A program made the translations under genes and the position numbers. Positions 9,661-31,722 of a DNA stretch of 44,318 nt are shown here, piece after piece. How positions within the stretch are numbered: position 1 is the first letter of the stretch; each line of letters starts with the position of its first letter. The notes beneath the pieces were generated by a model. It ran no database searches, was not told the DNA's origin, and saw only the letters and a program-made list of their open reading frames with translations. Source of the stretch: Dehalococcoidia bacterium (lineage in GTDB: Bacteria > Chloroflexota > Dehalococcoidia > Dehalococcoidales > S120); assembly GCA_011192075.1 (NCBI GenBank), contig DUER01000139.1, forward strand, positions 1 to 44,318, given 5' to 3'.

Positions 9661-9704
9661 AAAATTAAACCAAGGGCTTCGGCGGTTACTGCTAGACCCT
9701 TGGT
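9661..9704 (-). terminator. Riboswitch-controlled intrinsic terminator upstream of thiC
   Basis: Minus-strand RNA ACCAAGGG...CCCTTGGT (9704-9697 / 9676-9669) followed by TTTAATTTT. Confidence 0.75.
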
Positions 9705-9715
9705 CTAAATTACTG

Positions 9716-9795
9716 CCGCTTCCCTACGCTCGCATTACCGAGATCAGGTTCCCAGGGTTGGCATCAGCCTCTCAGCCGTCGAGCACCCCTAGCGG
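9716..9795 (-). promoter_or_regulatory. TPP (thi-box) riboswitch aptamer
   Basis: Minus-strand RNA CCGCTAGGGGTGCTCGACGGCTGAGAGGCTGATGCCAACCCTGGGAACCTGATCTCGGTAATGCGAGCGTAGGGAAGCGG; contains CTGAGA, ACCTGATC, GGTAATGC and AGGGAA; P1 CCGCT/AGCGG. Confidence 0.95.
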
Positions 9796-9927
9796 TTAAC
9801 CTTATTATATTCTGTTTATAATAATAACATAGGCTCGCCTAGAATGCAATGTCGGCTCTTCTATTTTCAACCTATCTCGCCCCCAGTTACTACTCCATTT
9901 GCAAGCAGCAATGATATAATAACCATT

Positions 9928-28801: not shown

Positions 28802-28900
28802 TACACCTCATTGGTTCCCCTTGACTTGCCCCCATAAAGGATACCACTTCTTAAGTTAGAGTTACCAGTAAAATAGTTCCTTTTTCAGCGTATCATCTTA

Positions 28901-28962
28901 TAGAAAAGGCAAACGGTATCAAATATTTATACGCATGGCTGGACAAACATCCCCATGTTTGT
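28901..28962 (+). repeat. 62-bp direct repeat, copy 1
   Basis: TAGAAAAGGCAAACGGTATCAAATATTTATACGCATGGCTGGACAAACATCC(cc)ATGTTTGT; copy 2 at 29954-30015 differs only at the 2 bracketed bases. Confidence 0.95.
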
Positions 28963-29717: not shown

Positions 29718-29953
29718 GGTATCACCTTAGTATATGGCAACGGACAACTGAAAACATCGTATTATCAAAGAGTGAAGGTGCTTTATAGAACTTCAAGCTA
29801 TCCTTCTGAAACATTTATTCATCGTCCAAAGATAGAACAGGACTGTTCACCTTTAGAGTTGGTATCTAATATCCAGTAGCAGGATGGACATTTAACCGGA
29901 TTTTGTTCTTCTTCTTACGAAAAGACATCCCGATAAAAGTGGTTTTCACTTAA

Positions 29954-30015
29954 TAGAAAAGGCAAACGGTATCAAATATTTATACGCATGGCTGGACAAA
30001 CATCCTAATGTTTGT
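29954..30015 (+). repeat. 62-bp direct repeat, copy 2
   Basis: See copy 1 at 28901. Confidence 0.95.
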
Positions 30016-30028
30016 TTGGTAGAAAAAG

Positions 30029-30101
30029 GTTCCTTTTTTAACCTGATTCATCAAGCATGACCTTTAGGCGTGATATTAAGCGGACCTTTTTATCGCGGCT
30101 G
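30029..30101 (+). repeat. 73-bp inverted repeat, left arm
   Basis: GTTCCTTTTTTAACCTGATTCATCAAGCATGACCTTTAGGCGTGATATTAAGCGGACCTTTTTATCGCGGCTG; 70/73 identical to reverse complement of 31162-31234. Confidence 0.97.
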
Positions 30102-31065
30102 GATAGCAACGAAGTATGTTATCACCGTCTACACGGTAGATGAAGTCTAAATTTCTTAGCTCATCAACCCCTAACTCTTCTATTGCCTCAGTGATGTATT
30201 GGTCTGGGGCATCAGTGTCTCTGTCCAGAATCAATATATGATATTGCGCCCAACGTTTTTCAAACTTTCTTACCGCGTTAGTCAGAACCATATAAACGCA
30301 TTCTGCTACCGATTCCCTAATTGCCCTAGCTGGCGTACATGTCCAAATTTGTACTGCTCCGGAGTCCTTCTCTTCACTAATGCCATCTGGTAGTCTTTCT
30401 AATTCCCATTCCTCGTCCCAATCGAAAGGTTTAGTTATTCCGCATAATGGACTTTCACATGCCGCCACAACCGCATCTTGAAAAGCCTTTTTGCACTCTT
30501 CAGTTACAAAAGAATGTTCTAATCCCTTGTCCACGAGCATGTATCTACCTTTTATTTTCTCCATTACTGGAGTTAACAATTCTGATATTGGACCAGCATG
30601 TAAACAATATATTGAAGGCGATGCAGTTTCACTACCGCGTGAAACATACCCACTACGCGGCACTTTAATTGCCCCTGTTTCATCTTGCTCAAGAGAAGGA
30701 GCTACGCGTTCAATCTCGCGCTTGATATGTTTGAACAGTTTGATATCCATGGGTAGATGAAAATTGACGGGAGGTGTAAGTGTATAGTACCCGCCACAAC
30801 TTGGGACCAGGTGCCTTTCACAGTGCAGAAGGTATTTGTAATAGTTCTGAGATACCGAATCCCCAGTTAACCGTTTGACCTCGATGGCAGCGGAAATGTC
30901 TCCATTGTTAACTATGACCTCTGGTGTGGGTTCTTCAGGATAAAGTTCATCGAGGACATGGTCAATAGTCCAACCTCCTCCAAGTATGGAGGAGAGATGG
31001 TCGCACGTCAGTTTAATGCAGTGAGATTCTTGCTCCGAAAGTGACATTTCAGATGCCGCTAACAA
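30076..31065 (-). CDS. Hypothetical protein with PD-(D/E)XK-like core, flanked by inverted repeats
   Basis: 329-aa ORF; EPTPEVIVNNGDISAAIEVKRL resembles a P(D/E)...ExK nuclease core; C-terminal codons lie in left repeat arm. Confidence 0.6.
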   Translation of the reverse strand: MLAASEMSLSEQESHCIKLTCDHLSSILGGGWTIDHVLDELYPEEPTPEVIVNNGDISAAIEVKRLTGDSVSQNYYKYLLHCERHLVPSCGGYYTLTPPVNFHLPMDIKLFKHIKREIERVAPSLEQDETGAIKVPRSGYVSRGSETASPSIYCLHAGPISELLTPVMEKIKGRYMLVDKGLEHSFVTEECKKAFQDAVVAACESPLCGITKPFDWDEEWELERLPDGISEEKDSGAVQIWTCTPARAIRESVAECVYMVLTNAVRKFEKRWAQYHILILDRDTDAPDQYITEAIEELGVDELRNLDFIYRVDGDNILRCYPAAIKRSA

Positions 31066-31119
31066 TATATTTATCGATTATATTGTAAGGCGGCAGATAA
31101 AAAAAGAAAAGAAGGAGAC

Positions 31120-31168
31120 TGGCCGCCCGAGTAGGATTCTAACTTATAACCTAGCGGTTAACAGCCGC
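31120..31168 (-). pseudogene. Degenerate tRNA-Asn(GTT) 3' half (anticodon arm to CCA)
   Basis: Minus strand GCGG-CTGTTAA-CCGC TAGGTTATAAGTTAGAATCCTACTCGGGCGGCCA; T-arm damaged (TTAGAAT in place of TTCGAAT), no 5' half adjacent. Confidence 0.75.
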
Positions 31169-31234
31169 GATAAAAAGGTCCGCTTAATATCACGCCTAAA
31201 GGTCATACTTGAGGAATCAGGTCAAAAAAGGAAC
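31162..31234 (-). repeat. 73-bp inverted repeat, right arm
   Basis: See left arm at 30029. Confidence 0.97.
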
Positions 31235-31321
31235 GTTAGTAGTGAACTACTACTCCCCTATCCTCCAAGGCTCCAGTCTTAATTACAAAGGTAGTGACCA
31301 AGAGACCAATTTTGAGTTATA

Positions 31322-31675
31322 ATGAATAGAGTGAAGGAACTTTACAAATGAGGACATGGAACAAAAGAGGATTATTTTGCCGACTACGTTGCTCTACAGA
31401 GAGAACTAAGACAATTAAAATCTAATGAGCCAAAACCAGAAATGCTGGAGAAGTTCGCTGAGTTTCTTAAGAATGTAGCCCTAGCTTGGGATAAAGCCTC
31501 ACAGGAATAAGGGAACCGCATAGCTAGCTGTCTACTTGAGATGGTTTGGATTAAAGATAAAAAAGTTGTAGCAGTAACGCCACGGCCTGAATTCAAGCCT
31601 TTCTTCGATCTGCAGTGTAAGGGATTGTCACACTATGTATTGCACTGGCGACCCCGAGGGGATTTGAACCCCTGA
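31322..31675 (+). pseudogene. Serine site-specific recombinase C-terminal remnant with two internal stops
   Basis: MNRVKELYK*GHGTKEDYFADYVALQRELRQLKSNEPKPEMLEKFAEFLKNVALAWDKASQE*GNRIASCLLEMVWIKDKKVVAVTPRPEFKPFFDLQCKGLSHYVLHWRPRGDLNP*; stops TGA 31349 and TAA 31508. Confidence 0.75.
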
Positions 31676-31722
31676 TCTCCACCGTGACAGGGTGGCATGT
31701 TAGACCGCTACACCACGGGGCC
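31646..31722 (-). tRNA. tRNA-Asp(GTC), CCA encoded
   Basis: GGCCCCG TG GTGT AGCGGTCTA ACAT G CCACC CTGTCAC GGTGG AGATC AGGGG TTCAAAT CCCCT CGGGGTC G CCA folds as complete cloverleaf. Confidence 0.97.

Follow-up and report, generated by a model that had tools for sequence, protein, structure and literature searches.

Mobile insertion cassettes, such as MIC231 of Bacillus cereus and mic-qnrD, consist of inverted repeats around a passenger gene with no transposase nearby, and their mobilisation in trans has been proposed (PMC3913671). A segment at 30023-31240 of the window (the whole 44,318-nt contig analysed here, from a Dehalococcoidia bacterium) and several other loci described below resemble these cassettes in having inverted repeats around a passenger and no transposase inside. 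However, the arms found here are about 70-76 bp long and palindromic, whereas those of mic-qnrD are about 24 bp (PMC3913671). The cassettes also usually show a target-site duplication and have a parent insertion sequence, and here many copies of the repeat are solo. The locus was not filed as a mobile insertion cassette because a duplication was looked for and not seen, and because no parent transposase is known. The solo copies resemble MITEs in being short, palindromic, intergenic, dispersed and without coding capacity. They differ from MITEs in having only one defined boundary, the outer one, and the paired copies differ in carrying whole genes and in having no known parent element. REP, BIME and REPIN sequences are likewise dispersed extragenic palindromes that sometimes form inverted pairs, but the repeat described here is larger, has another sequence, and its pairs stand kilobases apart around genes.

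As stated in the original prediction, the window contains a near-perfect inverted repeat around a single ORF. The arms at 30029-30101 and 31162-31234 are identical as reverse complements at 70 of 73 positions, with mismatches at 30040, 30050 and 30056 and a perfect inner stretch of 45 bp. A repeat finder extended the match to 30026-30101 and 31162-31237 (76 nt, 95% identity, 1060 nt between). Since the runner-up inverted repeat within the same 4.5 kb was only 21 nt long at 81% identity, arms of 76 nt are beyond chance. Each arm corresponds to one copy of a repeat of about 70 bp. The left arm (30023-30092, plus strand) scored 90.8 bits with profile R1 and 61.6 bits with profile R2; the right arm (31171-31240, minus strand) scored 89.2 and 55.3 bits. 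The left arm lies with its AAAAAGGTTCC end outward and its GGACCTTTTTA end toward the gene, and the match between the arms continues to 30101, beyond the end of the left-arm profile at 30092. No transposase-like gene was detected in the core by searches of Pfam, NCBIfam, PHROGs and PADLOC, and the core holds only one minus-strand ORF of 329 codons, both as predicted. The prediction had also noted that the left arm holds the last codons and the stop of the ORF, which is correct, and had taken the arm for a copy of the 3′ end of the gene, which is not. The arm repeat occurs at many unrelated loci, and the protein homology stops some residues before the arm. Judged from the sequence, the direction is reversed: the dispersed repeat provides the end of the gene, and the gene does not provide the arm.

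When the window genome was searched with positions 29880-31420, more arm copies were found on other contigs. Profile R1 detected 13 copies in this genome (E < 0.001). Across the same order it gave 98 matches, which came from 39 of 156 genomes and 28 of 85 genera. In a class-wide sample, profile R2 was positive in 17 of 393 genomes, 11 of them from the same order, and the repeat is rare in the class outside the order. The family is an imperfect palindrome of about 70 bp with the rough consensus AWAAWNGTTCCTTTTTTACCTCATAGTTTCACGCCTAGCCTTCAGGCGTGAAATTCAGCGSACCTTTTTA. Conservation starts abruptly at the outer edge, AWAAWNGTTCC, and decays gradually at the inner edge, fading past the CCTTTTTA end. 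Among the papers searched, none described an intergenic palindrome of Chloroflexi or a MITE of Dehalococcoidia, and the family is apparently undescribed.

Longer units that include the arm were also found. A 325-bp unit starting at the arm was 92% identical between L019:959-1282 (G000:C131) and L121:1772-2094 (G086:C134), whose hosts G000 and G086 are different genera of different families. Such identity across two families suggests, on sequence grounds, that the unit moved recently between the two lineages. The unit encodes a 61-aa membrane-protein-like ORF. In G038, a unit of about 240 bp comprising an arm and promoter-like sequence was present at two loci (L116:1755-1991 and L117:3205-3441, 92% identical), and the flanks of the two differ on both sides. 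The promoter-like sequence next to an arm of G085 (L114 inner flank, 1827-1916) is also a dispersed sequence and occurs in several copies across G085 and G087. At L017:1459-2187 (G000:C21), a 242-aa ORF lies on the inner side of a solo arm; by eye it is of the small primase type, and it had no Pfam hit.

Strong pairs of copies within 3 kb were found at four loci, namely the window locus, G000:C8, G085:C22 and G143:C153, with a weaker fifth pair at G094:C9. All five pairs are convergent, with the AWAAW end outward, and span less than 3 kb. Their cargo, one kind per pair, comprises the window ORF, a ThiF-family protein, a three-gene ABC-transporter operon, a beta-lactamase-family protein and an alpha/beta hydrolase. 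These are mutually unrelated, and no transposase was present among the cargo genes of any of the five pairs. We scanned 251 kb of inner flank and 231 kb of outer flank for partners. Within 3 kb, the partner arm in all five pairs lay inward on the opposite strand, and the other three arrangements gave 0. At 3.6-3.8 kb there were three further counts, from two other pairs, in other arrangements. About 0.14 convergent pairs would be expected by chance against the four strong ones observed (P of at least four, 1.6e-5); with three-fold local clustering, the probability of at least four was 1e-3. The suggestion that the segment could be a non-autonomous element thus gained support, as its arms belong to a dispersed family whose convergent pairs around unrelated genes recur elsewhere.

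Three further observations describe the same pairs. The best shared words near the ends were at chance level in four of the five pairs, and no target-site duplication stood out. Empty sites for the G085 and G094 pairs were not found in genomes of the same genus. In three of the five pairs (G000:C8, G143:C153 and G094:C9) the two arms are no closer to each other than to unrelated copies, which counts against an element, as does the absence of any partner within 4 kb for about 80 of the 90 copies. If the pairs are elements, most copies would be solo ends or MITE-like remnants.

Other functions of the repeat were considered. The consensus can be folded as a long hairpin. Compensatory change in the stem across 70 copies was no more than in shuffled columns, and the arms matched no Rfam family; a structured RNA or riboswitch was therefore rejected. 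The nearest inner-side gene pointed away from the repeat in 35 cases and toward it in 40, and with no bias in gene orientation a promoter or terminator was rejected as well. An upstream regulatory element, considered for the promoter-like sequence that follows some copies (L116/L117 and L114/L131/L182), was also rejected, as the directions of the inner genes are balanced. The lack of covariation and of orientation bias indicates that the repeat acts as neither a structured RNA nor a promoter or terminator, and we infer that a protein-binding DNA end is the simpler reading.

We regard the segment 30023-31240, with a probability of about 0.5, as a small non-autonomous element carrying cargo, in which two inverted ends of about 70 bp stand around one passenger gene. 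This reading draws on the number of copies in the window genome and in the order, on the sharp outer and gradually fading inner edge, and on close pairs that are only convergent, exceed chance expectation, carry differing cargo and lack a transposase. It draws also on the absence of covariation and orientation bias, which speaks against RNA, promoter and terminator functions, and on the arm unit shared at 92% identity by two genera of different families. The ends, AWAAWNGTTCC outward and GGACCTTTTTA inward, would be the recognition sites of a transposase or recombinase whose gene lies elsewhere. Pairs of ends would mobilise whatever gene stands between them, and the passenger would have moved jointly with its ends. 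The element can be called only putatively mobile, as the analysis found neither a target-site duplication nor an empty site, and no transposase. A wider proposal is doubtful, namely that these are gene-carrying elements restricted to the order, with palindromic ends of about 70 bp and a specific relation to the anticodon loop of tRNA-Asn, which can pick up single genes or operons and are mobilised by an enzyme that leaves no target-site duplication.

The passenger ORF was listed at 30076-31065 on the minus strand (329 codons). Its true start is likely the ATG at 31047, giving 323 codons, and not the listed TTG at 31065, because homology begins at this ATG. No significant match to the ORF was found in Pfam, NCBIfam, PHROGs or PADLOC. 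Homologs were found at 43%, 25% and 37% (partial) identity. The first is a 598-aa protein of the single-contig genome G080 of the order; a tRNA-Ala lies about 127 bp upstream of the start of its gene, on the same strand, and no arm was found near the gene. The homolog at 25% identity, which has one TAG interruption, and a short N-terminal homolog are from more distant genomes. The homologs in G080 and G173 align over the same stretch of about 320 residues, and the extra 270 or so residues of the G080 protein have no counterpart in the window genome. The G173 relative suggests that the domain of about 320 residues alone can be full length. The window protein can be aligned with its relatives to within a few residues of the left arm, and the arm supplies the last residues and the stop; it is therefore possible that the left arm clipped the end of the gene. 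No homologs were found in phage records, plasmid records or a scan of genome contigs.

The likeness of this protein to the PD-(D/E)XK superfamily, which had been predicted, received modest support. As in that superfamily, a motif (TPEV...AAIEVKRL) is present in the N-terminal part. Of the four sequences compared, the window protein and two homologs keep the block P-(E/D)...(A/V)xEVKRL, whereas the third homolog has VEITRL. In contrast to members of the superfamily, the putative nuclease has no profile match to any named family. A single-sequence structure model reached a pLDDT of 34, and a search of solved structures gave nothing credible. A PD-(D/E)XK-like nuclease function is a guess.

At the window locus itself, two rivals to the element reading are serious. 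Directly inward of the right arm lies the decayed 3′ half of a tRNA-Asn (31120-31167, minus strand), which agrees with the genome's intact tRNA-Asn at 37 of 48 positions; on the opposite strand of the window no stretch did better than 25 of 48. The left arm shares only the first bases of this fragment, up to CTG in the anticodon loop, after which the arms diverge. About 9 nt of tRNA fragment are included in the left-arm copy, whereas a clean element end would include fewer, which counts against an element. The divergence within the anticodon loop could mean that a tRNA attachment site recombined here, or that an inverted duplication had its breakpoint here.

The stronger of the two, although still on the unlikely side, is a local inverted duplication, which the original prediction had also named. 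Template switching or ectopic exchange would have placed an inverted copy of the right arm, together with the start of the tRNA-Asn fragment, at the 3′ end of the gene next to it; on this view the bracket is accidental and the gene never moved with the arms. This explanation remains live here because the two arms are mutual closest relatives: they are reciprocal best matches among 90 copies (91% identity, against a mean of 61%), as are the arms of the G085 pair. The stretch common to both arms continues past the repeat, enters the tRNA fragment and ends within the anticodon loop, and the ORF loses its homology immediately ahead of the left arm, as would happen at a breakpoint. However, a local duplication does not account for the shared geometry of four or five independent pairs, each of them convergent, less than 3 kb in span and placed around complete genes. 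An invertible segment, also named originally, found no support, as the segment has no recombinase gene and no copy in the opposite orientation was seen.

In tRNA genes used by tyrosine recombinases, crossover often occurs inside the anticodon loop. It is conceivable, with rather little probability, that the locus is what remains of an integrative element at tRNA-Asn. The arm would then be an element end beside the attachment core (the anticodon arm and 3′ half), the ORF the first island gene downstream of the tRNA, and the left arm the product of recombination at a secondary site. As in tRNA-integrated genomic islands, a tRNA 3′ half adjoins the arm and a homolog of the ORF, that of G080, adjoins a tRNA gene on the same strand. 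The junction of arm and tRNA-Asn was found at five loci in four genomes (the window, G000:C70, G056:C74, G027:C65 and G105:C13), integrase fragments lie near some copies, e.g. L118 and L126, and the window arms diverge inside the anticodon loop. Attachment repeats of such islands would be direct, whereas the arms are inverted, and the segment has no integrase. About 85 of 90 copies lack a tRNA fragment, and a dyad like a recombinase core, considered as a general feature following the arm, was not above the control stretch after other copies. On the inner side of the arm in three genomes (L118, L126 and L148) stands an NYN-domain-like gene, and two of these genomes also have the tRNA-Asn 3′ half there; the gene is possibly a chromosomal neighbour of a tRNA-Asn integration hot spot.

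An assembly artefact, with the draft genome joined at the repeat, is very improbable. The draft is in 187 contigs and many copies lie at contig ends, but several positions distinguish the two window arms, ordinary reads are longer than either arm, the flanks are distinct, both arms are inside a 44-kb contig, and the same geometry occurs in independent assemblies.

The outer flank of the left arm contains a further repeat. The second copy of a 70-nt direct repeat (29946-30015, plus strand) abuts the left arm, and the first copy (28893-28962, 93% identical) lies 1053 bp away, preceded by a truncated arm start (AAAATAGTTCCTTTTT). Related sequence was found beside other arm copies or fragments; in G096 (L122:4541-4658) a related copy has arm starts on both sides. 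A second dispersed repeat, at about 28822-28886 of the window and starting with TGACTTGCCCCCATAAAGGATACCAC, leads into an arm start and was matched 17 times in the genome; we take it to resemble an IS3-family end. Elsewhere in the window, a TPP riboswitch (9704-9800) and a tRNA-Asp (31646-31722) are ordinary.

Should the element reading be wrong, the dispersed repeat family still accounts for a class of inverted repeats in these genomes. If it is right, single genes and small operons would have a way, apparently undescribed, of passing between lineages within one bacterial order, and the enzyme responsible could be sought with the arm sequence as bait.
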